From a virus: a DNA stretch of 35,869 nt. Positions within the stretch are counted from its first letter, which is position 1. Every line of letters starts with the position of its first letter. Below, in pieces: positions 4,020-33,074 of the stretch. The notes beneath the pieces were generated by a model that was not told where the DNA came from, ran no database searches, and was given only the letters and a program-made list of their open reading frames with translations. Both the position numbers and the translations under genes were made by a program. Where the stretch lies: positions 1-35,869 of IMG/VR virus record IMGVR_UViG_3300027370_000005; one strand, 5' to 3'.

Positions 4020-6158
4020 ATGCCTAATCCCACCTACCGCGACGGTGAAGGAAAAACATTCCTACAGCGAGCGCGCGACCGTTTCAAATATTGCTACGAT
4101 TCATGGCGAGAAATAAAAGAAGAACACGACAAAGACATGCGTTTCCTTGCCGGCGACTCCTGGGACCCAGCCGAGAAATCCCGCCGCAAGAATCTCAACA
4201 TGCCGATGGTGCATTTTGATGAGCTGACGCAGTACATCAATCAGCTTGTCAACGATGTGCGCCAGAATAAGCGCGCGGTGAATGTCCTTCCAAAAGGCAA
4301 TGGCGCGAGTAATCAGACAGCGGCCTTGCGCGCCGACTGGGTGCGAGCTGTCGAATACATCTCTCAAGCGCAAACAGCCTATACGACAGCGTTTCAAAGC
4401 GCTGCTGGTTCAAGCTACGGCTTCTTTAAGCTCGAAACCTTTTACGAAAGCGAAAAGTCCTGGGACATGGGCGTGCGTATCTGCGAGATCGTGAACGCCA
4501 ACACGATTGTGTATGACCCGGATTGCAAGAAATACGACTGCTCGGACGCAGAAGACTGCTGGGAACTGGATTTTATGTCTCACGATGCGTTCAGGCGCAA
4601 ATATCCCGATGCTGAGGTGACGTCCTTTGCCGATGATGATGTGCAGCAAGCGGCGCCGGAATGGGTAAAGCCTAAACAGGTTCAAGTTGCGTCCTGGTGG
4701 AAGGTGGAACTCGATAAGGTGAAGTTGCATCTCGTGCAACTGTCCGACAGCTCCACGAAAGTCATGCGCTCGGATGAGCTGCCAAAGGACTTGCCAAAGG
4801 AAAAGCTGCTCAAGTCGCGCGATTTCGAAGATCGCCGCATCGTCCAATACGTCCTGAACGGCGTCGAAGTGCTTGAAACAAACGACCCGAAAAAGGGCAA
4901 GGGCTGGCCTGGGCAGTGGATACCGATTATCCCTGTCTGGGGCAAGGAAATGTTTGTGGACGAAGGTTCAGGCGCGGTCAGAAAGATTTACTCGCTGATT
5001 CGTTTGGCGCGCGATCCGCAACGCTATCTGAATTATCTAGCTTCTCAGGAACTTGCTGAAGCCAAGATGACACCGCGGAGTCCGTACATGGGGCCGCGCG
5101 GGATGTTCAGCGCGAATTGGAAGGACTGGGAGGATCTCAACGAAGATCCGAAAGCCGCAATTGAGTATGACATTCCCGAAGGCCAGCCACCCGGCACAAA
5201 GCCTGACCGCGTGCCTTTCGAGCCCAACTTCCAAGCCTACGAAATGGCGAAACAAGCCGCTAGCCGCGCCATCATGACGGCAATGGGTATCTCTCCTTTG
5301 CCCACTGATGCCCAAAAAGCCAACAACAAATCCGGCATCGCTTTGGCCAAGATTCAAGGGGAACGCGCGCAGGGAAGTTTTCATTTCATTGATAATTTCG
5401 ACCGTTCGCTGGTTTATTGCGGCCGGCAGCTGGATGACATTTTCGAGAAGATTCACACGATGGCGCGCGACATTCCGCAGCGCAAAGAAGACGGAACGCA
5501 AAGCACTGCGCGGATCAATGACCCCGATAACGGCAAGAACAAGATGTTTGAGGGCGATCACGATGTGACGATTACGGTCGGGCCGTCCAATGAATCGCAG
5601 CGCGAGGCAGTAGCGGAGTTCGCCGACACGCTTGCGAATATCCAAGGCGTTTTTCCGCTGATTGGCGATTTGATCGTAAAGATGCGGAACCTCGGGCCGA
5701 TTGGTGAGCAAATCGCAGAACGCCTGACGCCTCCACAGTTCGCCGGGCAAGGCGATGACGATTCCATGCCGCCGCAAGCGAAAGCCGCTATTGGTCAGCT
5801 CAAACAGCAACTCCAACAGTTGCAAACGGTCATCCAGCAACTTACGAGCGAAAAGGCCGCCAAGATGTGGGAACTCGACGGCAAGACGCAGATCGAGAAG
5901 ATCAAATCGGATACCGCAATCGCCGTCGCGCAGATTCAAACCAAGGCTCAGCAGCTCAGCGAACGCTTGCAAGCCCTCGAAGACATAAAGAGCGATTTCA
6001 TGCAGATGGCACACGAAAAGGGTATGTCGGCGCAAGATCATCAGCAAGCGACAGCGCAGAGCGCGCAGGAACACCAACAAGCCTTGGAACAAGGAACTCA
6101 GCAAGCGGCCCTTGCGCCTCAGCCCGATTCAGGCAATAATGCGGGCGCAGGGCAATGA
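4020..6158 (+). CDS. Portal protein, P22-like
   Basis: The portal dodecamer forms the unique capsid vertex through which DNA enters and leaves. The 712-residue product follows the P22 portal layout: an N-terminal helical segment (RFKYCYDSWREIKEEHDKD), an LAGDSWD motif, then MVHFDELTQYINQLVNDVRQ, matching the RPVVRKLVSEMRQ region of P22 gp1. In the middle, IIPVWGKEMFVDEG matches the IVPVFGEWGFVED region, and ARDPQRYLNYLASQELAEAK forms part of the stem. The last 140 residues are Gln-rich coiled coil (QLKQQLQQLQTVIQQL), comparable to the P22 barrel. The start is an ATG after a nine-base gap. Confidence 0.92.
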   Translation: MPNPTYRDGEGKTFLQRARDRFKYCYDSWREIKEEHDKDMRFLAGDSWDPAEKSRRKNLNMPMVHFDELTQYINQLVNDVRQNKRAVNVLPKGNGASNQTAALRADWVRAVEYISQAQTAYTTAFQSAAGSSYGFFKLETFYESEKSWDMGVRICEIVNANTIVYDPDCKKYDCSDAEDCWELDFMSHDAFRRKYPDAEVTSFADDDVQQAAPEWVKPKQVQVASWWKVELDKVKLHLVQLSDSSTKVMRSDELPKDLPKEKLLKSRDFEDRRIVQYVLNGVEVLETNDPKKGKGWPGQWIPIIPVWGKEMFVDEGSGAVRKIYSLIRLARDPQRYLNYLASQELAEAKMTPRSPYMGPRGMFSANWKDWEDLNEDPKAAIEYDIPEGQPPGTKPDRVPFEPNFQAYEMAKQAASRAIMTAMGISPLPTDAQKANNKSGIALAKIQGERAQGSFHFIDNFDRSLVYCGRQLDDIFEKIHTMARDIPQRKEDGTQSTARINDPDNGKNKMFEGDHDVTITVGPSNESQREAVAEFADTLANIQGVFPLIGDLIVKMRNLGPIGEQIAERLTPPQFAGQGDDDSMPPQAKAAIGQLKQQLQQLQTVIQQLTSEKAAKMWELDGKTQIEKIKSDTAIAVAQIQTKAQQLSERLQALEDIKSDFMQMAHEKGMSAQDHQQATAQSAQEHQQALEQGTQQAALAPQPDSGNNAGAGQ

Positions 6159-12540: not shown

Positions 12541-14375
12541 AGAAATGGCTCGCGCTCGCTCTTTTGCTTATCCCGCTGGCCGTTTTCGGTCAGGGCGTCC
12601 GCATTGGTGATGAACTCCCGGTAAATTCCGCGATCACGACTCCAGGAGTTATTTCGACGGTTCCGTTCACGAACGTCAATATCTGCACTTACCCTGCGAA
12701 CGGCGTCCCCTGCACGAATAAAGCCACGACCTACACTGGAATCACGCTGGCAACGCCATGCTCGACCTCTACACAGTTAGTCCTGCACGGCACAAGCTCC
12801 TGCGTCTCGCAAACCGATCTCTACGGAAATTGGGGCGCATGGGTAGCGTCGGGAACTTACGATATTACGTTCACCGTGTCTGGCGGCCAATCCTACGGGC
12901 CATTCACCCTAAGCGCAGGAGGCGGGAGCGCGGGCGGCGTTAGTTCCATCAACTCTCTCACTGGGGCTGTGACGTTTGCTCCAGGCGCAAATATCACGCT
13001 CACGCCCAGCGGTAACACGGTCACGATTGCCGCAACTGGAGGCGGCTTCACTCCGTCTATCAATGGCACGCCGCTATCCTCGGCTGGCTTGAACCTTGAG
13101 ACGAGCACGACGAACGCAACGGGGCTCACTTGCACGCCGACGCTAGTCTCGACCATCAACGTCATCCCCTGCGAAATTTCTGGAACGATTACGGCTGCCC
13201 ACGTCGCCACGCTCAACCAGAATACGACAGGAAATGCCGCAACCGCGACGGCTCTCGCCGCGACACCGACGCTATGCACTACAGGGCAAGCCCCTACAGG
13301 CGTATTGGCGAACGGCAACGCTACCGGATGCGCTTCGACAGGGGGCACGGGAACAGTCACTTCGTTCAGCGCAGGGAATCTCTCTCCACTTTTCACGACT
13401 TCCGTAGCCACGGCAACAAGCACGCCAGCACTCACATTTGCTTTGTCCAATGCGGCGCAAAATTCCATCTTCGCCGGCCCACCTACGGGAGGCGCGGGAG
13501 CGCCGAGCTTTCAGACCGCCCCCACATTCAGCGCAGCGAATCTAACGAGTTTCCCGACGTTCAACCAGAATACCACCGGCAATGCGGCAACGGCGACCAG
13601 TGCTTCGAATGGAATCACGGCAGGAACAGCCGGTTACTTTCAAAAAGCTGCTAGCTCGACAACTCTCGCGAATACGCTTTGCGATGAAGGCATAACGACA
13701 GTAAATCAAGTAACTTGCACGGACACGGCTGGGATTGCCGGTGTGTCATTCACGTCCACGCAATCGACGGCTGGGTTTGTAGACTATCCACAAGGTTCGT
13801 CAAGCGCATCGGCCCCCCTCTGCATAACAGCCTTTTCTATTTGCGAGCAAGCGCCAGCGACAGTTACTTCTTACTTGGTGACGAAGCCGGGATTGGCTGC
13901 TCAAGGAATTGAGACGAATATTGTTACATCGGCGGTGGACACGCAGGGCTTTAGCGGTGACGGGAATCATTCGACTGCCGTTACCATCGGCTCCGGTACT
14001 TCTATTGGCTCAACTTCCCTGTGTTCAACCGCCAACTGCCCGGCAGGAACTTATCAAATCAATGGCTACCTCGATGTCACTACGGCATGTTCAACGACAG
14101 GTGGCTATTTCGTAAGCATCACCTATACCGATGATGCAGGATCGAAAACAGTTGTAATGCCACTGATCGGAACCGGCGTCACGGCGAGTTTGCTTACGGC
14201 TACGGGAATCAGTTCCTCACTGGCACTTTCTTCTACCAGTAATTTCGCGCAAGGTGATTTATTTGTCAGGTCCACCGGAGCTTCGGCGATTACTTACACG
14301 ACGACAGCATCAGCCTGTGCTACCGGCGGCCCAGCGGTAGGCAAACTTTTTCTCTCAGTGGTGCCGGTACAATGA
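12537..14375 (+). CDS. Exported tail-fibre-like protein, 612 aa
   Basis: The TTG at 12537 overlaps the upstream stop (TTGA) and gives a compact signal peptide, KKWLALALLLIPLAVFG, cleaved after Gly18. The mature protein is typical of phage fibres: INSLTGAVTFAPGANITLTP, and two copies of NQNTTGNAATAT near residues 223-231 and 342-350. The C-terminal part (AGTYQINGYLDVTTAC, then VSITYTDDAGSKT) resembles a jelly-roll receptor-binding head. About 16 Cys occur mostly as pairs 3-20 residues apart, which fits disulfides formed outside the cytoplasm. It lies in the tail region, so a receptor-binding role is likely. Confidence 0.78.
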   Translation: MKKWLALALLLIPLAVFGQGVRIGDELPVNSAITTPGVISTVPFTNVNICTYPANGVPCTNKATTYTGITLATPCSTSTQLVLHGTSSCVSQTDLYGNWGAWVASGTYDITFTVSGGQSYGPFTLSAGGGSAGGVSSINSLTGAVTFAPGANITLTPSGNTVTIAATGGGFTPSINGTPLSSAGLNLETSTTNATGLTCTPTLVSTINVIPCEISGTITAAHVATLNQNTTGNAATATALAATPTLCTTGQAPTGVLANGNATGCASTGGTGTVTSFSAGNLSPLFTTSVATATSTPALTFALSNAAQNSIFAGPPTGGAGAPSFQTAPTFSAANLTSFPTFNQNTTGNAATATSASNGITAGTAGYFQKAASSTTLANTLCDEGITTVNQVTCTDTAGIAGVSFTSTQSTAGFVDYPQGSSSASAPLCITAFSICEQAPATVTSYLVTKPGLAAQGIETNIVTSAVDTQGFSGDGNHSTAVTIGSGTSIGSTSLCSTANCPAGTYQINGYLDVTTACSTTGGYFVSITYTDDAGSKTVVMPLIGTGVTASLLTATGISSSLALSSTSNFAQGDLFVRSTGASAITYTTTASACATGGPAVGKLFLSVVPVQ

Positions 14376-16054
14376 AACGCTATTTAGCGGCACTTATATT
14401 GTTTTTTGCTACGTTCTCCGCCCCTTCATTTGCGCAGACTGCCTTCAACGCATGGAGTCGGGCAGGAAACATAATTACAGGAACAGGATTCGGGAATCCT
14501 ACTGTCCTCAAAGACACGACCGGATGCGTGATTCTTTCAAGTCCCTGTTTCAAAATGTGGTATGGAAATTTCACTACAGGAAAGCTCTATTATCAGGAAT
14601 CTCTGGACGGTCTGACTTCTTGGACGCCGTACAGCGGGAACCCGATAAGCACAGGGAGCTTCATCGCTTTTCCCACGGTCTTCGAGAACGCCGGAACCTA
14701 CTATCTTTACTCCGGCGAAAACCCGATCATCTTGCAAACTTCAACGAATGGAGTTTCTAGCTGGACGGCGGCGACAAATATTCTTTCTGTCGGCAGCGCT
14801 GGAGCTTGGGATGCTGGCGACTTGGCGCAATTTGTGGTCTTGGGTAACGTCGCCGGAACTTGGTACGCCTACTATAATGGATTCAGTTCTAGCGGTCCTC
14901 AACTTGGCGGGGAAGGGCTCGTAACAGCTACAAGTTTGTCAGGGCCGTGGACAAAATCTCCGAGTAATCCGGTTATCACCAATGCCAACGGAAGTCCGGG
15001 CCCCGGCGCGGCTGTGTCTTTTCTGCAAGTAGGCGGGACTTATTACTGTTACGCAGCAGCCTACTTCAATAACAATTTTTTGACAAGTATAGGACTAGAC
15101 GGAATCATGCGTTGGTCAGCGCCTTCCATTGCCGGTCCGTGGACAGAACTGACCTATCGTGGGAATCAGTTCGCTGTGTATTATGCAGCGTCGGCGGCAG
15201 ATTACCCAACAAACACGATGGGGATAAACCTCGGCGACGTATCCATTTTGGCAGCCAACGGGAACATCTACTTATACTACGACTTGTCGATTGGAGTGGG
15301 AGGCGCGGAAGGGTACATAAACGAAGCTGTTGCTACCGGATATACTCCAGCACAGCTCGTCCGTACTTATGAGGGCGTTGTAGGCGTTCCAATTTCCGGT
15401 GCTCCCCAGTTAAACCTTGTCACGCAGGCTTCAGATAATTTTCAGCGGGCAGGACCGGCTCTAGGCTCAAACTGGACGGTTCTCAATACCAGCCCTTACA
15501 CAAACGCCGTCATCTCTTCAAATCAGGCGGTACCGAGTGCGCTAGGTACATTTGCAGCGGATTGGTGGAATCCCTATTCATGGACCAACGACCAGTGGGC
15601 GCAAATTACTATAGCTCAATTGGCTAATTCCAGTTGCGCCGCAGGCGCAGACATTCGGATGAACGAATCAGGCGCAGCTACGACTTACGAAGTAAGCGCC
15701 GGCGGACCTTTAGGGAGCACATCGGCTAACTGGTTTATAAGAAAAAGAGTAGCGGGGACAACCACTATTCTAGGCAATTTAACCGGGATCTCCTTTAGCG
15801 CTGGCGACACGATTTTGGGAGTTGTAAACGGAACGAATTTGTACATCTACTGGAATGGCTATCTTATCGGTCTGGCGAGCGATTCGTCTTTGACTTCCGG
15901 TGCTGGAGGATTTGATGTTGTGGCTTCGACATCGGCATCCAATGGAGCTATCAGCGCATGGAGCGGCGGAAGTTTTCAAACCGCACCGTTATTGCTGGGT
16001 GCGTCTGTTGGCGGGAAAGCGTCTGTTGGCGGAAAGGCGGGGATTGGAAAATGA
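14372..16054 (+). CDS. Exported beta-propeller (GH43-like) plus lectin-like domain protein, 560 aa
   Basis: A signal peptide (MKRYLAALILFFATFSAPSF, cleaved after Ala21) leads into repeated blades: NPTVLKD...FKMWYG, FPTVFENAGTYYLYSGENP, LAQFVVLGNVAGTWYAYYNG, and DVSILAANGNIYLYYDLS. This blade pattern is that of the five-bladed furanosidase superfamily (GH43/GH32/GH130-like). The usual first Asp-Pro reads Asn42-Pro43, so activity is uncertain. From about residue 352, DNFQRAGPALGSNW and YIYWNGYLIGLASDS suggest a concanavalin/LamG-like sandwich. The C-terminus repeats SVGGKA. It could be a polysaccharide-binding or depolymerising protein acting outside the cell. An ATGA overlap joins it to the fibre gene. 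Confidence 0.68.
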   Translation: MKRYLAALILFFATFSAPSFAQTAFNAWSRAGNIITGTGFGNPTVLKDTTGCVILSSPCFKMWYGNFTTGKLYYQESLDGLTSWTPYSGNPISTGSFIAFPTVFENAGTYYLYSGENPIILQTSTNGVSSWTAATNILSVGSAGAWDAGDLAQFVVLGNVAGTWYAYYNGFSSSGPQLGGEGLVTATSLSGPWTKSPSNPVITNANGSPGPGAAVSFLQVGGTYYCYAAAYFNNNFLTSIGLDGIMRWSAPSIAGPWTELTYRGNQFAVYYAASAADYPTNTMGINLGDVSILAANGNIYLYYDLSIGVGGAEGYINEAVATGYTPAQLVRTYEGVVGVPISGAPQLNLVTQASDNFQRAGPALGSNWTVLNTSPYTNAVISSNQAVPSALGTFAADWWNPYSWTNDQWAQITIAQLANSSCAAGADIRMNESGAATTYEVSAGGPLGSTSANWFIRKRVAGTTTILGNLTGISFSAGDTILGVVNGTNLYIYWNGYLIGLASDSSLTSGAGGFDVVASTSASNGAISAWSGGSFQTAPLLLGASVGGKASVGGKAGIGK

Positions 16055-17478: not shown

Positions 17479-17675
17479 GCGCCGCACGACCAATCTTGCC
17501 TTCAGTAGAATCGCGAGAGTCGCTTTCCGCTGCGATAGGGCGTGAGCCAGATTATGTGAAGATTGAGGTAAAATTGTCAGGCGGTGATTTGAAGAACGTG
17601 CGACGGATTTTAGATGGGAAATACGAGCCTCTTGAGGATGCTTGGCTCACAGTTAGGGTGAAGAAAATTGGGTAG
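17475..17675 (+). CDS. Hypothetical small protein, 66 aa
   Basis: The GTG at 17475 overlaps the preceding TGA (GTGA). The product is a compact alpha/beta sequence (DYVKIEVKLSGGDLKNVRRI, then LEDAWLTVRVKKIG) that looks like a folded small domain. Its 3' end overlaps the TTG of the gp10-like gene by eight bases, so its translation may drive that of the downstream gene. No family is recognised. Confidence 0.55.
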   Translation: MSAARPILPSVESRESLSAAIGREPDYVKIEVKLSGGDLKNVRRILDGKYEPLEDAWLTVRVKKIG

Positions 17676-19248
17676 GTTCTCGATTATCGGAGGTTCATAT
17701 ACTTCGCAGTCTTTAACCGCGGACTGCCAGCGCACGGTCAATTTTTACCCCGAAGTGCTTGAGGCCCAAGGCGGCAAATCCGCGATGGCGCTTTATCCCA
17801 CGCCGGGGACGATCATCTTCGCGGTTCTCCCTGCAGGGCCGGTGCGTGCGCAACTCGAAATTAACGGCCGCTATTTCGCTATTGGAGGTCCAAACTTTTG
17901 CGAAGTGCTTGCGAATGGCACCGTAAATGTTATCGGGCAGGTTGCTAACGATAATCTTCCCGCTTCGATGGTTGCGAGCCCCCAGCAACTCCTGATTGCG
18001 GCTGGTGGAAGTCTGTACGTCTACCAGCTCCAAACTCAACCGAACGTGAACGGCACGACCATTGGCGGCGTGATTCCGCCAACGCTTGTTGCCGGCACGT
18101 TCTACATGATCCCGGTTGGCACGTTCACTTTGCCGGGAGGCGCGCAGGGCAATCCGTCGCAGGTGGAATACATCGACGGTTTCTTCTTGGTGCTGATGCG
18201 GGCCTCGCAGACATATTACATTTCAACGCCGCTCGATGCTTCGAGCTGGCCGCCGCTCCAGCAAATCACTGTCACAGTGTTCTCTGACAACATTCAGGGA
18301 TTCATCCAGAACCAGCGTCGCCTACTCGTTCTTGGGCGTAAGCGGTCAACCGTCTACTACGATTCCGGGAGCCTCAATATCTTCGACGTGGATCCGTCTG
18401 GCACGGTTGAGAATGGTTCCGTCGCTATCTTCGGCATGTGCCGCCTCGACAACTCGATTTTCTGGGTTGACCAAGACGAGCGGGGGAACGGCGTTATTCG
18501 GAGGAATTCTGGCTACACCCCAGTTCGAATCAGCAACCACGCTGTCGAGTTTGCGCTGCAAAGCTACCCCACGATTGCTGATTGCGTGGCATATGCCTAC
18601 CAGGACCAGGGTCACAGCTTTGCCGTCTTTTACTTCCCGACAGCGAATAAGACGTGGGTTTACGACGTCGCAACCAGCATGTGGCACGAGCGAAGCTATT
18701 ACAACGTTCTCAACGGCATGGAATCGGCGCACAAGAGCCAGAATCATCAACTCGCGTTCGGCAAGCACCTCGTGGGCGACCCGGGGAGTGGGAATATCTA
18801 TCAGATGGAGATTCCGTCCTTGCAGGCCGGCGTTTGGAGCTTCGTCACGGACAACGGGAACACCATTCGCCGGATGCGAAGGTCACCGCATATCTCGAAA
18901 GAGAACCATTGGATGTTTTACAATCAATTGGTACTCGACGTCGAGACGGGCTTGGGACCGATGCCTCCCTTGCTGGACGGAAGCGGTAATCCCCGCGACC
19001 CGCAAATCATGCTAAGGTGGTCGAAAGATTACGGCCATACGTGGAGCAACACGCACCTTTTGAACTGCGGGCAGGAAGGGAACTATCGAGCCCGCGCACG
19101 CAGGAGTAGAATGGGCCGAGCTCGCGACATGGTTTTTGAGATTGTTTGCACAGACCCGATTGGCTGGCGTTTGATAGACGGCTATCTGGACGCTGATGAC
19201 TTCACGCCGCAACAGAGATTGCCGAATAAGTACGCACAGGTGAGCTGA
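17668..19248 (+). CDS. P22 gp10-like packaged-DNA stabilisation protein
   Basis: The 526-residue product (TTG start; AGGGTGAAG upstream) has the layout of the P22 gp10 family, beta-propeller-like proteins that plug the tail. Its markers are TVNFYPEVLE, MALYPTPGTIIF, FQSY-like strands, a central VEYIDGFFLVLMRASQ and LGRKRSTVYYDSGS, HSFAVFYFPTANKTWVYD, and a late QIMLRWSKDYGHTWS ... RRSRMGRARD region. In P22, gp10 binds gp4 and retains the DNA. The gp4-like protein lies at 11305. Identification is good. Confidence 0.85.
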   Translation: MGRFSIIGGSYTSQSLTADCQRTVNFYPEVLEAQGGKSAMALYPTPGTIIFAVLPAGPVRAQLEINGRYFAIGGPNFCEVLANGTVNVIGQVANDNLPASMVASPQQLLIAAGGSLYVYQLQTQPNVNGTTIGGVIPPTLVAGTFYMIPVGTFTLPGGAQGNPSQVEYIDGFFLVLMRASQTYYISTPLDASSWPPLQQITVTVFSDNIQGFIQNQRRLLVLGRKRSTVYYDSGSLNIFDVDPSGTVENGSVAIFGMCRLDNSIFWVDQDERGNGVIRRNSGYTPVRISNHAVEFALQSYPTIADCVAYAYQDQGHSFAVFYFPTANKTWVYDVATSMWHERSYYNVLNGMESAHKSQNHQLAFGKHLVGDPGSGNIYQMEIPSLQAGVWSFVTDNGNTIRRMRRSPHISKENHWMFYNQLVLDVETGLGPMPPLLDGSGNPRDPQIMLRWSKDYGHTWSNTHLLNCGQEGNYRARARRSRMGRARDMVFEIVCTDPIGWRLIDGYLDADDFTPQQRLPNKYAQVS

Positions 19249-19526
19249 TGGCCCTTCCCCCACTTCCACCACCGCCGCCAAGCCCGACTACCGTGCTCGG
19301 GGAGGACGGATATTTCACCACGGCATGGTCTATCTTCCTCAATTCGCTCTGGACGGCCGTGCGCGCCATCGCAAATCTTGTGGCCCCGCCCGCAACATCA
19401 GCTTCACCGGGCATCGCGGGGCAACTGGCCTTCGATCAAAATTTCCTTTATATTTGCGTGAGAACTAATACAGCGAGCCCGAGCGTGACAGCCTTATGGA
19501 AGAGAATCGCACTGACAAACTTTTAG
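19248..19526 (+). CDS. Hypothetical tail-region protein, 92 aa
   Basis: The ATG shares a base with the upstream TGA. The product starts with a Pro-rich run (PPLPPPPPSP), then FTTAWSIFLNSLWTAVRAI and a beta segment FDQNFLYICVRTNTASPSVT ending ALWKRIALTNF. Small proteins of this pattern (a hydrophobic helix, then a strand and a WKR-ALSxF end) are common next to P22-like tail genes. It overlaps the acyl carrier protein start by 31 bases. Confidence 0.65.
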   Translation: MALPPLPPPPPSPTTVLGEDGYFTTAWSIFLNSLWTAVRAIANLVAPPATSASPGIAGQLAFDQNFLYICVRTNTASPSVTALWKRIALTNF

Positions 19527-19717
19527 AGATGATTGCCGCCGAGGGTAAGATTCCTCGCGAGCGACTCACGCTTTCGACAAAGGTGGAAGACCTCGGCTTG
19601 GACTCCCTCGACTTCATCTCGCTCATTCAGGACATTGGCGAGAAGTTCAAGGAAATCCCGGACAGCAAGATTGCGGGGCTAGAGACGGTGGGCGACATAT
19701 TGAAGGCCATCGAATGA
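19496..19717 (+). CDS. Acyl carrier protein
   Basis: The 73-residue acidic protein has the ACP plan: an N-terminal helix, then LSTKVEDLGLDSLDFISLI with Ser37 in the DSL motif that accepts 4'-phosphopantetheine, and a C-terminal helix (ETVGDILKAIE). The start at 19496 places Ser37 where FabD/FabH-type ACPs have Ser36, so it is preferred to the ATG at 19529 despite the 31-base overlap with the previous gene. ACPs carry acyl chains as thioesters; loading here would need a host phosphopantetheinyl transferase. Its ATG overlap with a GNAT gene and its place beside ejection genes suggest acyl transfer in virion maturation or entry, which is inference. Confidence 0.82.
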   Translation: MEENRTDKLLEMIAAEGKIPRERLTLSTKVEDLGLDSLDFISLIQDIGEKFKEIPDSKIAGLETVGDILKAIE

Positions 19718-20172
19718 GCGTAATCTTCGCCGTGGAGAAATGGTCCGATTGCCTAGCGGAGCTTCGCCCGCTATTTTCGTTGCTGTGGGCTGACGTTGCC
19801 GTGGACAAGGATAGATTCGTCGCGAAGTGCGATGAAGTAAAGTACAAAGCGCTCGAAGATTTGAATATGCTGCACCTCGTAACCGTGCGTGATGGCGAGA
19901 AACTTGTCGGCTATTATCTGGTTTTCATCACACCCAATGGCCACTACGACGGCGCGGGGCCGATGGCTTTCACGGACATGTATTACGTTTTGAAAGAATA
20001 TCGCCGCGGCAACACTGGCATGAAACTTTTTGCATTCGCAGAAGAAACTTGGCGCGCGAAAGGTTGCGTCAAGGCGTACACTTCCCACAAGCTACATCGT
20101 GACCGATCGGCGATGCTGAAAGCTCTCGGCTGGAAGGCGACAGACTTGATTTATTCGAAGGTGCTCGCGTGA
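19714..20172 (+). CDS. GNAT-family acyltransferase, 152 aa
   Basis: The product shows the GNAT fold: HLVTVRDGEKLVGYYLVFI (beta2-beta3), TDMYYVLKEYRRGNTGMKLF (beta4 plus the acyl-CoA loop, here RRGNTG, a loose match to the R-x-x-G-x-G/A consensus), and KLHRDRSAMLKALGWKATD, with the ALGW/ALGF turn, near the C-terminus. It starts at an ATGA overlap with the acyl carrier gene. GNAT proteins are common near DNA-transfer genes of podoviruses, where the substrate is usually unknown. GNAT-fold enzymes such as HlyC use acyl-ACP, so the neighbouring ACP is a candidate donor. It has no evident HlyC-specific motif. Confidence 0.82.
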   Translation: MSVIFAVEKWSDCLAELRPLFSLLWADVAVDKDRFVAKCDEVKYKALEDLNMLHLVTVRDGEKLVGYYLVFITPNGHYDGAGPMAFTDMYYVLKEYRRGNTGMKLFAFAEETWRAKGCVKAYTSHKLHRDRSAMLKALGWKATDLIYSKVLA

Positions 20173-21002
20173 GCGTTGCGGCCATTGGCAGTATTGCGGC
20201 GGCTGGGATAGGAGCGGCTGGAAGCATCGCGTCTGGATCTATGCAAGCGGGCGCGGCAGAGAACGCCCAGCAACTCCAAGCACAAGAAGCGCAAAATTCC
20301 CTAAATTTCCAGGAACAGGAATGGAATACTCAGCAGCAAAACGAGGCTCCCTTCCTCGAAGCCGGGCAAGGTGCCATCGGTAATCTCTCACAGATGGTCA
20401 ACCAGGGCAATGCAGGACAAGGCCCACTGGCTCCGTGGACAGGGACTTTTTCCGCGCCGACAGCAGCGCAAGCCGAAGCGACTCCAGGCTACCAGTTCCA
20501 AGCGCAGCAAGGCGAGCAAGCTGTCCAGAATTCAGCAGCGGCAAGTGGCGGACTACTCACTGGCGGGACGCTCAAAGCCGAGCAGAACTATGGTCAGGGC
20601 CTCGCATCGGAGAACTATCAGAACACGTTCAACAACGCTCTCACGCAGTACCAGACGGCCTACAACACGTTCCAGAACAACGCAGCGAACGCATACAACC
20701 GTGAAGCTGGCATCGCTGGAATTGGGCAGACGGCGGCTAATCAACTCGGCACAGAAGGCCAGCAAGCGGCCAGTAACACCGCGAATATCAATCTTACGAC
20801 CGGCGCACAGCAAGGCGCCGATATTCAGAATGCGGCTTTCCAGACAGCGAGCGGCTATACCGGCGCGGCCAATGCTCTCTCTGGCGGTATAAATAACATT
20901 GGCAGCCTGTCGATGTTGCAACAGATTCTCGCGCAACAGCAACAGCCAAGTATGGCCGCAGCAAATGCTGCGATGCCGTATTCGGTTGACGAGAACGGAT
21001 AA
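20169..21002 (+). CDS. DNA ejection protein, P22 gp7-like
   Basis: The GTG at 20169 overlaps the GNAT stop. The 277-residue product begins with a Gly/Ala-rich, membrane-like segment (IGSIAAAGIGAAGSIASGS), then a Gln/Asn/Ala-rich helical region (QQLQAQEAQNSLNFQEQEW), TPGYQFQAQQGEQAVQNSAA, then GYQF-like repeats and GQTAANQLG. This is the layout of the DNA-transfer proteins of P22 (gp7) and relatives, which leave the capsid with DNA and form a channel in the host envelope. The N-terminal segment fits membrane insertion. Confidence 0.78.
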   Translation: MSVAAIGSIAAAGIGAAGSIASGSMQAGAAENAQQLQAQEAQNSLNFQEQEWNTQQQNEAPFLEAGQGAIGNLSQMVNQGNAGQGPLAPWTGTFSAPTAAQAEATPGYQFQAQQGEQAVQNSAAASGGLLTGGTLKAEQNYGQGLASENYQNTFNNALTQYQTAYNTFQNNAANAYNREAGIAGIGQTAANQLGTEGQQAASNTANINLTTGAQQGADIQNAAFQTASGYTGAANALSGGINNIGSLSMLQQILAQQQQPSMAAANAAMPYSVDENG

Positions 21003-21006
21003 GTGA

Positions 21007-22605
21007 ATGGGATATTTTCCTTCAGCCGCGAACCAGTTGCAGCAACAGCCGAACCCGCTAGATCAGTTCGCGAAAGCGCTGTCCGTCAAGAACATGATTG
21101 GCCAGGGAACGACGCAACAACTCCAGCAACAGGGCATGGCGCTGCAAAATCAGAATGAACAGCAAGCCATCACCGATCGGGCAGCAACGACAAAAGCCAT
21201 GACGGAGTGGGATGGTAAGAACTTTGAAGATTTGCCAGCGCTTGTTCTTAAAAATGGCGGCTCCGCCAATGCCGTCTTTGGTGTGCGCAAGCAACTCCTC
21301 GACCAAAAGCAGGCGCTATCGAAAATTGCTGCCGATGATGCCACGACGGGCAGCAAGAATATGGAAACCTACAAAGGGAAGAATGACCAGATTGCCGGGC
21401 GTGTCCAGTCTTTGAGCGATGTCTCGGACGCGAATCTTCCGCAGGAAGCACACAAGGTAGCGAATAGCCTCGCTACGGATGGCTTGATTGATTCCGCACA
21501 TCACGACCAGTTGATGCAGGTCATCGATTCTTCCTCCGATCCAGGCGCCCTTCGCCAGCAGATGGACCATTACGCAAAGATGCACATGGGAGCGAGTGAG
21601 CTGGCTGGGGACGCTCAGAAGAATTCCGAAGTCTACAAGAACATCCAGCAGGGCAATCTAGCCAAGGCTGAGGCGCTGCAAAAAGGCTCACCGCTTACAG
21701 CGATGGAAACGGACCCGACACACTTTACGGCGGAGAAATTGCCAGGAACAATGGCGTATCTCCAGAGCAAGATCGCGGATCCCAACGCCGACCCGGTAGA
21801 TAAAGCGCGGGCCACACGTCTTTTGAGCACGGCGACGACTGCGCAGAAAATTCAGCTCCAGCAGGACACCGCAAAGAAATCCGCAGATCAAGCGATTCAG
21901 GATGGGGACCCAATTGTGGCGGGACAGCTCCTCCATGACGGGATTGTAGCGCCATCGCAGATCATTTCGGCTCGCAAGCCGGAATTCGCACAAAAGGCGT
22001 TCCAGGCGGCTGCCAGCAAAGGCGATGGCTGGAACGCTCAGCAAGCCGAGGCCAACTTCAAAGTAGCGGGTTCGCAAGCGAACACGGCATTCTTCGGCTC
22101 GGCCAAGTCTCTGACCGACAAAGGCGGCACACTCGACCAGCTTGCCGACGCCGCGAAAGACATCCCCGATGGCCAAATCCCGGTCTTCAACAACATTGCG
22201 GACGTGATGAAAGCGGCGACAGGCAGCGGGCCAGTGGCAAAATATGCGGCTATCCTGCTAGGCGTTGCCGACGACTACTCGAAAGTCATGGGTGGCGGAC
22301 AAGGCAGTGACACTTCGCGCAATCAAGCTTTGTCACTTGCCCCTGCTCAGGCCAGCCCTGAAGCGCGCGCAGCGGCCATTGAAGGAATCCGGGGATCTGT
22401 AAATTCACAGAAAAACTCTCGCATCGGCTCGAACCCGGTCTTGCAGAAGATGTATGGAGATCAGCCTGGCGGACCCTCTGGCGCTCCGAAAATTCCTGGG
22501 CCTGGCACCGCTAAATTCCACTACTCAGGCGCGAAGGGTGAAATTTTCTCGGACGACGGCAAAACATGGTACGACGCGAAAGGCGTCCCGGTCACTGCGA
22601 AATAA
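21007..22605 (+). CDS. Internal/ejection virion protein, 532 aa
   Basis: The long helical, Gln/Ala/Lys-rich product starts PSAANQLQQQPNPLDQFAKA and lacks Cys. The C-terminal third holds YAAILLGVADDYSKVMGGGQ, SDTSRNQALSLAPAQASPEA and SQKNSRIGSNPVLQKMYGD, a conserved-looking segment typical of large internal virion proteins in podoviruses. Its position, directly after the gp7-like protein and before a second large internal protein, fits the P22 gp7-gp20-gp16 ejection set. The precise equivalence to gp20 or gp16 is inferred from order. Confidence 0.72.
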   Translation: MGYFPSAANQLQQQPNPLDQFAKALSVKNMIGQGTTQQLQQQGMALQNQNEQQAITDRAATTKAMTEWDGKNFEDLPALVLKNGGSANAVFGVRKQLLDQKQALSKIAADDATTGSKNMETYKGKNDQIAGRVQSLSDVSDANLPQEAHKVANSLATDGLIDSAHHDQLMQVIDSSSDPGALRQQMDHYAKMHMGASELAGDAQKNSEVYKNIQQGNLAKAEALQKGSPLTAMETDPTHFTAEKLPGTMAYLQSKIADPNADPVDKARATRLLSTATTAQKIQLQQDTAKKSADQAIQDGDPIVAGQLLHDGIVAPSQIISARKPEFAQKAFQAAASKGDGWNAQQAEANFKVAGSQANTAFFGSAKSLTDKGGTLDQLADAAKDIPDGQIPVFNNIADVMKAATGSGPVAKYAAILLGVADDYSKVMGGGQGSDTSRNQALSLAPAQASPEARAAAIEGIRGSVNSQKNSRIGSNPVLQKMYGDQPGGPSGAPKIPGPGTAKFHYSGAKGEIFSDDGKTWYDAKGVPVTAK

Positions 22606-24672
22606 ATGGCTAATGGCGACAATGGTCAACAAGCTGCTGTTCAGCTTCCTCCTGGGTACCAGGACGCGGCTCCGGTCGGCGTTTCGCTTCCGCCTGGATA
22701 TTCAGACGCAAAACCCGCTAATGCCAAGCCGACAGGTCCAACCATTGGCCCTCGTAGTACCGCTGTAGTTCCCGCCATTCCGACAGCGATGGGTACAATC
22801 CCCGCGCCCGTAGTCCAAGCCGGTTGGGATGCAGCTCAGAAACTCGAAGATTGGGCGAACATGACCCAGGAAGGCGTACAGCAACATCCCGTCCAAGCGG
22901 AAGTCGGCCAAATCGCGGCGCGCCTGAAGCAATATCTCGTCGGCGGGCAGGGAGGTGGTCAGGATCTCAAAACCGGATTCCTCACCAATCCTGTCATGGG
23001 TGCAGTCACGGGCTTGCCTGAAGATGAAAGCCTGAACGCCGCGCGCGGAGTTTATCAAGGTGCGAAAAACTTAGCGGAGCGGTTCATCGGCGCACCAGCC
23101 GCAGCCAAAGAAGCAGTCCAGGCGACCGAGGCCGGCAGAGCTATTTCTCAAACGATGGCGCCAGAAACGGCGAATGCCGCGCTATCCAGCACGCGCGGTG
23201 CGGCAACGACTGGCGGGGCTGCAACCACCAGCATCACAAATCGAGATGTGATTCAGCACGCCTCGGACATGGGAATCAAACTGACGCCGGCACAAGCACT
23301 GCAAACGTCGGCAGCTAAATCGGAACAGACATTAGGCGAAGAAGCACTTCTGACGGGGAGCAAAATCAAAGAAGCGGCGGCTGCAGAAAAAGCCAAACTT
23401 GCGGACCAAGTAAGTGCGTTTCAGGACAAACTCGACCCGCAAAAGGTTGGAATGTCGGCAGAATCGGCTGGCGAGCATCTTCAGAACTCGGCCGATATTG
23501 CGCGCTCGGTCCTCAAAGACAATGTGAACCAAGCTTACGCCGACGTGAAGGCGCAACAAGCGGACCTCGCTGGGGACGTTCGCCCGGGGTTGCAACAAAT
23601 GATCCACGATGAATCTTTCATGCGTCAGCCGAGTGCCGCAGTCGAACGGCCCGTTTTTCTGACCTCAGGCGCGAAATCTGCCATCAATGATATTCAGGGG
23701 ATGCTCGAAGATCCCGCGATGCAGGGTAGACAGTCGATTCAATCTCTGCGAAACTTGCGAACGACGTTGCTAGAAAAAGGGAACGACTATGGTGCAAACG
23801 CTCTTAGTGATTCTGGTCAGCGTATCTATAAGCTTGCGGCTGGTAAAGTGGATGACGCAATCATGGACGCCGCAAAGGGAACTCCCTTCGAACAGACTTT
23901 CCGAGATGCCGGGCAACAGAATGCCAAGCTTCAGTCCCTCTATAATCAGAAAGGATCTCCCCTCTATCGAATCCTCAACACCGACGATCCAGCGGCTGTT
24001 ACCAATGGCATCCTCAACCGTTCTTCCGTTCAGGAAATTGAAACACTGAAGGGTGAGAAATTTGACCTCGGACCACTCGCACGGCAAGCAGTAGAAGACA
24101 TTAAGGACGGCGGTTTCAAGGTCACGACGGGCGGGCTCGGCGGTTACCCAGATACTTTTCTTCGTTCGCTCCTCGGCCCTGAGGCGACAAAAGAACTTTA
24201 CATGAAGGCCGACGTCGCACGCCGTCTCGCAGAAAACTACAATCCTTCGGGTTCTGGCAAGGTCGTGCTCGGCGCTTCACAAGTTTTTCACCCGGTTGCA
24301 GCAGTTGGGGCGCAAGCGGCGCGCCTCCGATCAATGCCGCAAGATGCACTCAATTTTCTCCCAAAGATAGAAGGGCCGACTTCCCCGATTACCGGAGGCC
24401 CCATTGCCTCGCCGCAAGAATTGTTCACTCAACCGGGTTCGAACGTCACGGCAACGCCGCAGAGCTTTCAGCCAGCATCGAGAGTCGCCAGCGCGCCTGA
24501 ACCACGCCAGCCATTGCCTGGAGTTAGCCCCGAAGCCGATGCCGCCGCGAAAGCCTATGCCAACGAAATCGCTTTGAAGCGCGTAAACGATGCGCTGAAA
24601 AAACCAGGGTTGGCGGCGCCGGAAAAGGCTAGACTTGAAAGGTTGCGGGATTCTTACGCAGAGGAACAATGA
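22606..24672 (+). CDS. Large internal/ejection virion protein, 688 aa
   Basis: The protein begins with a duplicated motif, LPPGYQDAAP and LPPGYSDAKP (residues 14-37), and a Pro-rich leader. It continues with Ala-rich helices (EQTLGEEALLTGSKIKEAA and following), a DDAIMDAAKGTPFEQTFRDA region, and LGPEATKELYMKADVARRLA. There are no Cys residues. Its size, composition and position after two similar proteins suggest the third ejection protein, like P22 gp16, which enters the host membrane with the DNA. The start follows the upstream TAA directly. No catalytic motif is seen. Confidence 0.7.
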   Translation: MANGDNGQQAAVQLPPGYQDAAPVGVSLPPGYSDAKPANAKPTGPTIGPRSTAVVPAIPTAMGTIPAPVVQAGWDAAQKLEDWANMTQEGVQQHPVQAEVGQIAARLKQYLVGGQGGGQDLKTGFLTNPVMGAVTGLPEDESLNAARGVYQGAKNLAERFIGAPAAAKEAVQATEAGRAISQTMAPETANAALSSTRGAATTGGAATTSITNRDVIQHASDMGIKLTPAQALQTSAAKSEQTLGEEALLTGSKIKEAAAAEKAKLADQVSAFQDKLDPQKVGMSAESAGEHLQNSADIARSVLKDNVNQAYADVKAQQADLAGDVRPGLQQMIHDESFMRQPSAAVERPVFLTSGAKSAINDIQGMLEDPAMQGRQSIQSLRNLRTTLLEKGNDYGANALSDSGQRIYKLAAGKVDDAIMDAAKGTPFEQTFRDAGQQNAKLQSLYNQKGSPLYRILNTDDPAAVTNGILNRSSVQEIETLKGEKFDLGPLARQAVEDIKDGGFKVTTGGLGGYPDTFLRSLLGPEATKELYMKADVARRLAENYNPSGSGKVVLGASQVFHPVAAVGAQAARLRSMPQDALNFLPKIEGPTSPITGGPIASPQELFTQPGSNVTATPQSFQPASRVASAPEPRQPLPGVSPEADAAAKAYANEIALKRVNDALKKPGLAAPEKARLERLRDSYAEEQ

Positions 24673-26346: not shown

Positions 26347-26528
26347 TGCACTTCGATTGGACTTTCACGCTAGGGAACTTGCTGATGCTCGTATTTGGTG
26401 CGCTGCCCATACTCGCAGTCGTTGTCAAAACGTATTGGCTCCTCAAGGAATATCCTCCGCACCGGCACGTCGGCAATGTGATAGTCTACCCGGCAGGAAC
26501 ACGCCCGGAGCATATGGGGCATAAATGA
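26346..26528 (+). CDS. Small single-span membrane protein (holin candidate), 60 aa
   Basis: The ATG at 26346 shares its first base with the previous stop; a TTG three bases earlier is in frame. A hydrophobic helix spans about residues 8-28 (LGNLLMLVFGALPILAVVV), followed by a short basic/aromatic tail (KTYWLLKEYPPHRH). The stop overlaps the endolysin ATG. Small one-span proteins next to endolysins are often holins, but this is inference from position. Confidence 0.6.
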   Translation: MHFDWTFTLGNLLMLVFGALPILAVVVKTYWLLKEYPPHRHVGNVIVYPAGTRPEHMGHK

Positions 26529-27016
26529 CTCAACTAAGCCAACACTTCATGCTTGAGGAGTTCTCGAAAGATGGCCCAATCGATCCCGCTTGCATTCCTA
26601 TCCTGACGCAGCTCTGTGCCGAAATTCTCGAGGCCGCGCATGAGAAATATGGGACGGTTGAAATCACAAGCGGCAACCGCCCTCCGCTCGATAATGCCGA
26701 AGCTCACGGTCAGCCAAACTCCGAACACATCTATACGCCAGCATGGGCAGCTGCGGACTTCTACTGCCCCGGCGCCGCCACGCGCGAAGTTTTCGATTGG
26801 ATGCGAAACGACCCGACGCTCCCATATCACCAGCTCATCCTCGAGCACGGCCAGGTTTCGACCGTCATCCATATCTCAATGAACACGCGAATGCCGGGAG
26901 TTCGCTCAGTGCTCGAGGGCTCGACGCACAACGCATCGCCGTACGTCAAGATCGCCCATGCGGACTTCAATCCGCCCAGCAACAGGGACGATGTTCAGGA
27001 AGCGAGTGCCGGATGA
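26525..27016 (+). CDS. Endolysin, M15 peptidase family
   Basis: The 163-residue product fits the zinc D-Ala-D-Ala-type peptidase family (Peptidase_M15_3). A first motif contains SEH with zinc ligand His68, Asp78 lies in AAADF, and the last is VIHIS with His116; Glu107 lies in LILEH. In most members His and Asp are seven residues apart; here they are ten, so a short insertion is present. Phage M15 enzymes cut cell-wall peptides for lysis. No signal peptide is seen, so a holin would be needed. It starts at an ATGA overlap. Confidence 0.85.
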   Translation: MTQLSQHFMLEEFSKDGPIDPACIPILTQLCAEILEAAHEKYGTVEITSGNRPPLDNAEAHGQPNSEHIYTPAWAAADFYCPGAATREVFDWMRNDPTLPYHQLILEHGQVSTVIHISMNTRMPGVRSVLEGSTHNASPYVKIAHADFNPPSNRDDVQEASAG

Positions 27017-30069: not shown

Positions 30070-30547
30070 TAAAATGGCAGTGCAGGGTCAAGTGATTGAC
30101 GGTGAGATTGCCGAACCAAAAGCGATGACTGAAAGTCAAAAGCTGATTAAAGGCTTGCGAGACTTGGCGTCTTTTCTCGAAGCGCACCCAGAACTGCCGA
30201 TGACTTCCTCGACTTTGCGTGTGGATTACTTTCCAAGGCTCGAAGAAATGGCTCAGTACGTCAAAATCCTCGGCAAAATGAAGAAAGATGGCCTTGGCGA
30301 TTCGTGGTTCGTTCTCCGCAAGGACTTCTATCGCAGTGAATATGCCAGCGTGTCGATCGAAGCAAACTGGGCCCGAGAGCGTGTCTGCCAGAAGATCAAG
30401 ACGGGGACCAAGAAGATTATGCAACAAATTCAGACCAAGCCTGCCGAAACCACGCAGATCGAAGTTGAGGTCGAGACATTTGAGTGGAAATGCCCAAAAG
30501 TGGCTGCCCCACCCCCAGAACTGGTTGAAGAAAGCGAGCAGCCATGA
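30062..30547 (+). CDS. Hypothetical early protein, 161 aa
   Basis: A strong ribosome site (AAGGAGAAAAG) precedes the ATG. The N-terminal part (LIKGLRDLASFLEAHPELPM) has a pattern I recall in other phage early proteins of unknown role. The centre holds ARERVCQKIKTGTKKIMQQI, a basic helix, and the C-terminus is a beta/Pro-rich tail (VEVETFEWKCPKVAAPPPE). It directly precedes the Erf-like gene (ATGA overlap), so a recombination or DNA-binding accessory role is possible. Confidence 0.55.
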   Translation: MTNKMAVQGQVIDGEIAEPKAMTESQKLIKGLRDLASFLEAHPELPMTSSTLRVDYFPRLEEMAQYVKILGKMKKDGLGDSWFVLRKDFYRSEYASVSIEANWARERVCQKIKTGTKKIMQQIQTKPAETTQIEVEVETFEWKCPKVAAPPPELVEESEQP

Positions 30548-31338
30548 GTGAAGAGCAAGTCAAGCCTCCTGAGCCGGCACGGCCCAAATCGCTGGTGCAG
30601 AAATTGGCCGATATTGTGGCCGAAATCGACAACGTGGACAAGCGTGGGCGCAACGAATTCCAGAAATATGCCTACGTGAAAGCTGCTGATGTGGCTTGGC
30701 TTGTTCGCAAGGCTCTGTCTGAACGAAACGTCTACCTGGTGGCCGATGTCATCGAGGTCCGCAACTACGAAATCCCCGCCAAGGAAGGCCACATGCAGGC
30801 TGTTGATGTGAAAATGGAGTTCAGTTTCTTTGATGGCGACTCTCCGTCAACTGCGCCTATCGTGCTCCACAGCTACGGTACTGGAACGGACAAGGGCGAC
30901 AAAGCTGTCTACAAGGCCATGACTGGCGCTCTCAAATACGGCCTGAGGCATGCTTTCCTCATCCCTGATGAGTCTGACCCGGAAGCCGATTCTTCGACGG
31001 ATAAGGCCGTAGAGGCCGCTAAAGCCGTGGGCGAGGCCAAAGTCGCAGACCTGAAGAAAAAGGCCGGAAAATCGCCAGCGGTGGCCCAAGGAATCCTATT
31101 CTGGACGGCTCCCGACAAGTTTAATGGGCACCGAGCCACCTTTCTAAATTTGAAGGAGTTCGGCGCAGGGCTGAATGAAGTCGCGGCCGAAGGTCTGCGC
31201 CAGGTGCTCAAGAAGTACGTGAAGGGCAATGGGGACGGCATCTATGTGCCTACCAGTGGCAAAAACAATATGGACATGCTGCTGGTTGACCTCGAAGGCT
31301 GCGGCGTGCCCACCAAGAAATTGCAGGCGAAAGACTGA
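30544..31338 (+). CDS. erf: Erf-family single-strand annealing protein
   Basis: The 264-residue product shows the Erf family plan: EFQKYAYVKAADVAWLVRKA at residues 38-57, then a beta region, and YGTGTDKGDKAVYKAMTGAL at 111-130 followed by KYGLRHAFLIPDESD. In P22, Erf binds single-stranded DNA and pairs ends for genome circularisation. The C-terminal part (GHRATFLNLKEFGAGLNEVA, then LKKYVKGNGDGIYVP) is less conserved. It fits a terminally redundant, P22-like genome. Confidence 0.85.
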   Translation: MSEEQVKPPEPARPKSLVQKLADIVAEIDNVDKRGRNEFQKYAYVKAADVAWLVRKALSERNVYLVADVIEVRNYEIPAKEGHMQAVDVKMEFSFFDGDSPSTAPIVLHSYGTGTDKGDKAVYKAMTGALKYGLRHAFLIPDESDPEADSSTDKAVEAAKAVGEAKVADLKKKAGKSPAVAQGILFWTAPDKFNGHRATFLNLKEFGAGLNEVAAEGLRQVLKKYVKGNGDGIYVPTSGKNNMDMLLVDLEGCGVPTKKLQAKD

Positions 31339-32305: not shown

Positions 32306-32470
32306 ATGAGAAAGATTGGGTTCTTGGACCTAGGAAAAGCCATTGAGTTGGCAAAGCCTGGAGAGGGCGACCGTTGGAGCATTGCGCAGCTTAAATCCGT
32401 TTGCGACATTTTGAACGCGGAGAATTCTGAAGCCTCGGAAAAGGAAGGAACTGAAATTGAGAATACTTGA
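32306..32470 (+). CDS. Hypothetical small protein, 54 aa
   Basis: The ATG at 32306 has AAGGG about nine bases upstream and is preferred over 32282. The product begins MRKIGFLDLGKAIELAKPGE and looks helical and acidic toward the end. The stop lies 14 bases into the methyltransferase gene, whose TTG has a good ribosome site inside this one. Its function is unknown. Confidence 0.45.
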   Translation: MRKIGFLDLGKAIELAKPGEGDRWSIAQLKSVCDILNAENSEASEKEGTEIENT

Positions 32471-33074
32471 TTTGTTCTGCGGGCAGGGCGGCGCGGCGAT
32501 GGGACTGCATCGGGCGTGGCCAGAGGCGGAGATTGTGGGAGTTGATATTAAGCCTCAGCCTCGGTACCCATTTGCGTTTGTGCGGGCCGACGCTCTTACC
32601 TTTTCCTTCCAAGGATTCGATTTTATTTGGGCCAGCCCTCCATGTCAGCGATACAGCTGTGTTACGCCGAAAAATCGTAGGCATCTCCACCCGGACTTGC
32701 TGGAAATAACAATTCAGCGCGTATTTGGTAATTTGTGCAAAGCATCATTTTGTATCGAGAATGTGGTTGGAGCGCGAAAGTATTTCTTTGAACCGTTTAT
32801 GCTCTGTGGCTCTATGTTCGGATTGCGAACCAGGCGCCATAGGTTATTTGAAACTAGCTTTCCATGTAAGGCTCCACGGCCATGCGACCATTCCCTGCGG
32901 TCCTTACTCGTCACCACCGCAGGAGCTAACAGTCGCAAGATAGGCAATCGAAAATCAGTCAAAAACGCTCTACTGGCTTACGGGATTGGATGGATGGATG
33001 GTAATGGACTGAAAGAAGCTATCCCTCCCGCCTACAGCGAGTACATCGCAGTGCAATTTAAGGGTGCTCAATAA
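32457..33074 (+). CDS. Compact C5 cytosine DNA methyltransferase
   Basis: The 205-residue product holds most key motifs: DLFCGQGGAAMGLH (motif I, SAM binding), ASPPCQRYS (motif IV, with catalytic Cys in PCQ), CIENVVG (motif VI), RTRRHRLFE (motif VIII), and PPAYSEYIAVQF (motif X). The target-recognition segment between motifs VIII and X is short (about 55 residues). Such compact phage enzymes exist and may alter phage or host DNA to avoid restriction. The TTG start has AAGGAAGGA upstream. No partner restriction enzyme is seen in the window. Confidence 0.85.
   Translation: MRILDLFCGQGGAAMGLHRAWPEAEIVGVDIKPQPRYPFAFVRADALTFSFQGFDFIWASPPCQRYSCVTPKNRRHLHPDLLEITIQRVFGNLCKASFCIENVVGARKYFFEPFMLCGSMFGLRTRRHRLFETSFPCKAPRPCDHSLRSLLVTTAGANSRKIGNRKSVKNALLAYGIGWMDGNGLKEAIPPAYSEYIAVQFKGAQ

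Follow-up and report, generated by a model that had tools for sequence, protein, structure and literature searches.

An acyl carrier protein gene coupled to a GNAT gene beside the ejection genes of P22-like podoviruses

Described acyltransferase systems and the phage locus

NodF/NodA consists of a dedicated acyl carrier protein (ACP) and an N-acyltransferase that uses acyl-ACP; we know of no dedicated ACP in the rtx operons. The same combination of a dedicated ACP and an acyl-ACP-using N-acyltransferase is found in FeeL/FeeM, and acyl-ACP is the substrate of N-acyl amino acid synthases such as FeeM (PMC8762209). HlyC and ApxC (RtxC) are GNAT-fold enzymes without CoA-binding elements that acylate a membrane-active protein with the acyl group taken from ACP (PMC8339906), and they are a precedent for a GNAT-fold enzyme using acyl-ACP. 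Among phage proteins, the GNAT Rac of phiKMV is thought to acetylate a host protein (PMC7552054). Known phage ACPs include those of phrog_5934 and phrog_4154, of Xanthomonas phage XbC2 and of Erythrobacter phage R6L (ORF32). Unlike the ACP described below, the XbC2 protein has no annotated GNAT partner within 4 kb, and no GNAT is named beside R6L ORF32, a phage ACP without an assigned function (PMC5463345). The 'fecal phage' matches MT837406 and MT835740, labelled Bacteriophage sp., were discarded as phage ACPs because their ACPs lie among bacterial metabolic genes; these records are probably bacterial DNA.

The window, i.e. the whole analysed stretch of DNA, corresponds to a viral record with a length of 35,869 bases and was assigned to a P22-like podovirus by the matches of terminase, portal, coat and head-closure proteins. 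The gene order is the same as gp10-gp26-gp14-gp7-gp20-gp16 of P22, and in both cases the gene of the small ejection protein is immediately preceded by one for a protein of about 150 aa. In contrast, there is no ACP in the corresponding region of P22. Identical DNA across the ACP-GNAT pair was detected in 2 further IMG/VR records, and the search with two pattern sets resulted in no prophage relatives among 84,980 bacterial and archaeal genomes. Elsewhere in the window, genes of an M15 peptidase endolysin (26525-27016), an Erf-like recombinase (30544-31338) and a C5 cytosine methylase-like protein (32457-33074) were found, as was, between the coat and head-closure genes (14372-16054), a protein of 560 aa that weakly matched glycoside hydrolase family 43. 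The features of the ACP-GNAT region are as follows:

17668..19248, plus strand: head closure protein Hc3, P22 gp10-like (phrog_578, E 6e-89); the anchor of the blind sampling
19248..19526, plus strand: 92-aa ORF at the P22 tail-needle position (phrog_17312 tail protein C-terminus, E 1e-7)
19496..19717, plus strand: ACP, 73 aa, ATG start (PF00550, E 3.2e-11; AF2 model)
19604..19606, plus strand: codon of ACP Ser37, the phosphopantetheine attachment site (DSL), from the alignment; invariant in 23 phages
19714..20172, plus strand: GNAT-fold acyltransferase, 152 aa, ATG start (PF00583, E 4.4e-7; phrog_1249, E 6.1e-14; AF2)
20083..20109, plus strand: GNAT residues 124-132, SHKLHRDRS (motif SxKx[HS]x[DNS]), located in the loop after beta5
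20169..21002, plus strand: gp7-like small ejection protein, the candidate target (phrog_598 DNA ejection, E 5.7e-25; P22 gene order)
21007..22605, plus strand: second ejection protein, at the P22 gp20 position, from the gene order of P22; no informative family match in family profile searches
22606..24672, plus strand: third ejection protein, at the P22 gp16 position, from the gene order of P22; no match in family profile searches

The 3' end of the needle-position ORF overlaps the ACP start. The TGA stop of the ACP gene overlaps the ATG of the GNAT gene in ATGA, and the TGA stop of the latter overlaps the GTG with which the gp7-like gene starts (20169). The two reading frames and both overlaps were located where the original prediction had placed them.

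Properties of the ACP and the GNAT

The 73-aa protein is a type II FAS-like acyl carrier protein. Its PF00550 score was determined to be 43.8 bits with the curated cut-off of 20.8; in the nine ACP records, eight scores were above the cut-off and the ninth was 19.6 bits. The AF2 model consisted of four helices with a mean pLDDT of 89, in which Ser37 of LDSLDF sits at the start of helix 37-50. The best Foldseek match of the model was the apo-ACP of T. maritima with a TM of 0.87, and the family profile was nearest to fatty-acid ACPs. The DSL/DSM serine was invariant in 23/23 distinct phages, and the identities of 12 aligned ACPs to the window ACP were 24-46%. The pI values were 4.1-4.5, and the pairwise dN/dS, determined with one close pair, was about 0.10. 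The earlier claim of a genuine ACP beside GNAT and ejection genes was supported. PPTase (PF01648) was not detected in nine records, therefore a host enzyme would have to activate the ACP.

The domain and the fold of the GNAT superfamily were identified in the 152-aa protein with Pfam, AF2 and Foldseek/VIA. The mean pLDDT of the AF2 model was 94.9, the VIA comparison with GNATs resulted in a Z of 15.7, and acetyl-CoA GNATs were the nearest among the Foldseek and VIA matches listed. In motif A (R/Q-x-x-G-x-G/A), Arg97 and Gly102 were invariant in the first set of ACP-coupled proteins, and the middle Gly was mostly replaced by Asn or Thr. Due to the acetyl-CoA-type fold and the retained CoA-loop residues, the GNAT may use acetyl-CoA. 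The pairwise dN/dS, again of one close pair, was about 0.03. A GNAT toxin/antitoxin module, which would have a DNA-binding antitoxin encoded upstream, was rejected because the protein at that place is an ACP (PF00550); antitoxin profiles gave no match.

Among the GNATs encoded in this slot, the loop after beta5 distinguished the ACP-coupled ones from the others. The motif S-x-K-x-[HS]-x-[DNS] was present in 22 of the 23 distinct ACP-coupled GNATs, whereas all 26 GNATs without ACP lacked it (Fisher 6e-12 for distinct loci, uncorrected for kinship). Among the first 25 GNATs, the ACP-coupled proteins were mostly neutral to basic, whereas the ACP-less ones were mostly acidic. A GNAT that docks with an acidic ACP could have such a loop and such a charge, although neither proves docking. 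A related KxHxD loop was found in the GNATs of the cultured phages MW202796 and PfAn1, and no PF00550 ACP was detected across the whole records of both.

It had been proposed that the pair might act like HlyC and lipidate an ejection or tail protein. This analogy proved to be weak. The fold is of the acetyl-CoA type, and the window GNAT gave no Pfam match to RtxC at E 0.1. Arg97 and Gly102 are kept in the phage GNAT, whereas the RtxC enzymes are without CoA elements (PMC8339906), and there is no conserved acceptor lysine in the gp7-like protein. HlyC-like lysine lipidation is therefore not favoured. No Pfam match to the FeeM, LuxI and NodA families was obtained either; HlyC, LuxI, NodA and FeeM were absent from the best Foldseek and VIA matches listed, which excludes nothing. 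FeeL/FeeM and NodF/NodA differ from the phage pair in having small-molecule acceptors, in being located outside virion operons and in showing no sequence match with it.

Linkage and joint transfer of the pair

In IMG/VR, the ACP was encoded directly upstream of all the close relatives of the window GNAT, and PF00550 was present in 9/9 of the records concerned. Other members of the same GNAT family, phrog_1249, are encoded beside terminase or ejection genes in BPP-1 (bbp24), PfAn1 and Vibrio phages, and in PfAn1 the gene is also directly upstream of that of an internal virion protein. In contrast to the window, PF00550 was detected in none of the 10 tested records of phages with such GNATs.

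In order to avoid circularity, 79 IMG/VR loci were sampled via the upstream head-closure gene Hc3, blind to both ACP and GNAT. The ACP was found in 24 loci (22 distinct), and in 24/24 the GNAT followed directly behind; an ACP without GNAT was found in 0 of the 79 loci, and a GNAT without ACP in 26. The 22 distinct ACP loci and one further locus, L032, make up the 23 distinct phages referred to above. With the serine invariant in all of them, the ACP-GNAT order is more than chance. The conserved linkage was a test set beforehand, and the possibility of no linkage was firmly rejected. The original prediction had been unaware of a partner ACP at such a position; our literature search yielded no description of a phage ACP-GNAT pair, and the database searches gave no such pair either.

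The distribution of the ACP required 2 changes on the GNAT tree. On the gp7-body and Hc3 trees, 12 changes were required on each, at least 9 of which were forced by well-supported branches. The presence of the ACP fits the GNAT tree and not those of the flanking genes, which indicates that the ACP follows the GNAT and not the phage backbone. On the GNAT tree, the ACP-coupled proteins formed one main group, to which only L057 did not belong: its ACP is paired with a different GNAT type, nested among ACP-less GNATs, and represents a second pairing. Thus, the ACP and the GNAT are a mobile two-gene unit which has been paired twice.

The unit occupies an exchangeable slot between the needle-like ORF, its upstream border, and the gp7-like gene. 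The slot contained a GNAT accompanied by the ACP, by a cupin-like protein or by a DUF6445 protein, or else a short GNAT or only a cupin-like protein. The cupin-like protein had no Pfam match, and the assignment is our own reading of its sequence. It replaces or follows the GNAT in L126:1477-1971, L089:5781-6284, L099:6500-6931 and L122:6488-6847; the first cupin-like codons in L126 and L089 match the ACPs of neighbouring phages, since the genes of both proteins overlap the 3' end of a common upstream gene. The DUF6445 protein (L079:5047-5820, E 5e-12) is encoded directly upstream of the gp7-like gene and is preceded by the GNAT frame 4796-5221.

In P22, the slot of the ACP and GNAT is held by gene 14 (L027:1912-2367). 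When compared by profile with the families of P22 gp14 and T7 gp13, the GNAT family of the window gave no match (probability <1%, positive control 99.7%). The slot proteins L121:5793-6254 and L125:5679-6140 matched both DUF2824 (P22 gp14) and GNAT Pfams, with scores that mostly reached the cut-offs or fell just short of them, and the L121 protein was aligned with a gp14 relative. These matches suggest that P22 gp14 may be a diverged GNAT. The literature searched gave no description of the P22 gene 14 mutant phenotype.

Possible function and the candidate acceptor

It is likely that the GNAT receives its acyl group from the ACP. The phosphopantetheine would be added to the phage ACP by the host AcpS, after which the host fatty-acid machinery would charge it with an acyl group. 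The acyl-ACP would dock on the GNAT, which would then transfer the acyl group to an amine of a concurrently synthesised partner in virion assembly. The donor role combined with such a target is quite possible, although we place it somewhat short of probable. The KxHxD loop of MW202796 and PfAn1, which lack the ACP, the Pro at gp7-like residue 2 of L057 and the possible use of acetyl-CoA by the GNAT were counted against it.

Alternatively, the pair could be a host-directed metabolic unit in which the ACP supplies an acyl group that the GNAT attaches, as in FeeL/FeeM or NodF/NodA, to an amino acid, a lipid, a sugar or the like as small amine, altering the host envelope or signalling during infection. 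The fatty-acid type of the ACP agrees with this, as do the nearest known parallels, which yield small N-acyl products from acyl-ACP (PMC8762209). However, at every locus the pair lies in a late virion operon with tight gene overlaps, flanked by head-closure and ejection genes, and P22 gene 14 of the same slot is annotated as a morphogenesis gene, thus a metabolic role appears unlikely. The flow of the acyl group could also be reversed. GNAT-like loading domains of polyketide synthases load acyl groups from CoA onto ACP, and the phage GNAT might load an acetyl or short acyl group in the same way, with the acyl-ACP feeding or blocking the host fatty-acid enzymes. Although the CoA-type fold, the kept CoA-loop residues and the constant company of the GNAT with the ACP speak for it, this direction leaves the virion-operon location and the ACP-less GNATs of the same slot unexplained, and was considered distinctly improbable.

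Acyl-ACP is a structural partner of mitochondrial LYR proteins, and the GNAT-fold protein and the ACP might likewise be assembly factors for the ejection proteins and not enzymes. This would be in line with the short GNAT-like proteins that score poorly as GNATs, the cupin-like proteins and the P22 gp14 relatives held by the slot, and with the annotation of gp14 in head morphogenesis. The ACP serine is nevertheless invariant, and the ACP-coupled GNATs keep both the CoA-loop residues and the conserved polar loop, which makes a purely structural role quite doubtful. It is very improbable that the two genes are unrelated hitch-hikers, i.e. a stray fatty-acid ACP and a GNAT that acetylates a host protein like phiKMV Rac: phage GNATs with a host effect (PMC7552054) and single ACP genes in other phages (PMC5463345) are known, but 0/24 ACPs were without a GNAT, and two pairings and repeated joint transfer were observed. 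The constant pairing and joint transfer suggest that the ACP and the GNAT work together on acylating a partner, perhaps the gp7-like protein.

The counterpart of gp7 in T7, gp14, is an outer-membrane pore (PMC8954989). The gp7-like proteins of the ACP clade were lysine-poor (near lysine-free) and had a conserved N-terminus; no conserved lysine column was found in them, and the N-terminus is their sole universal amine. Judged by these sequences, the gp7-like N-terminus would be the best candidate acceptor and fits better than a lysine. The acyl group would most likely be accepted by the N-terminal Ser, Gly or Thr left after removal of Met, the acceptor and the chain length both being conjecture. 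In the window, residue 2 is Ser2 (codon 20172-20174). It was Ser, Gly or Thr in 21/21 loci with the motif-bearing GNAT and Pro in 8/8 loci with the short GNAT (Fisher 8e-5), and L057 has Pro in spite of its ACP.

On the gp7-body tree, seven contrasts between neighbours agreed: L056 vs L052-54, L057 vs L055, L065 vs L026, L125 vs L070, L080 vs L079/L085/L089/L097, L115 vs L091/L099/L117, and L109/L084 vs L067. In our reading, the enzyme type would travel with the N-terminal segment of gp7. This covariation may reflect functional matching or mere physical linkage to the cassette. The ATGA overlaps bias the gp7-like codon 2 to begin with A; residue 2 was also Ser in the loci without the overlap (L025, L026, L053, L070, L117).

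In the fullest form of the donor model, a mobile self-contained cassette of carrier, acyltransferase and matching target N-terminus would acylate the ejection protein that breaches the outer membrane, and would be swapped as a unit against other modules (other GNATs, cupin-like proteins). We regard this form as rather unlikely. If the pair has the proposed function, we know of no earlier phage system whose virion proteins are acylated by a carrier and a transferase that the phage itself encodes. A function would then also be suggested for the GNAT-like proteins, perhaps including P22 gp14, next to the ejection genes of podoviruses. Even with the target set aside, the repeatedly transferred ACP-GNAT unit is a clear and testable pairing.

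Two observations were made on the starts of ejection proteins. The conserved first residue of the gp7-like protein was encoded by ACG in L053, L025, L071, L067 and L082, with no ATG, GTG or TTG upstream in the open frame; a Shine-Dalgarno-like sequence was often present, and such starts were repeated across divergent phages. The T7-like gp14 in L036, L047, L048 and L049 begins with Met-Cys, another possible site of N-terminal modification.
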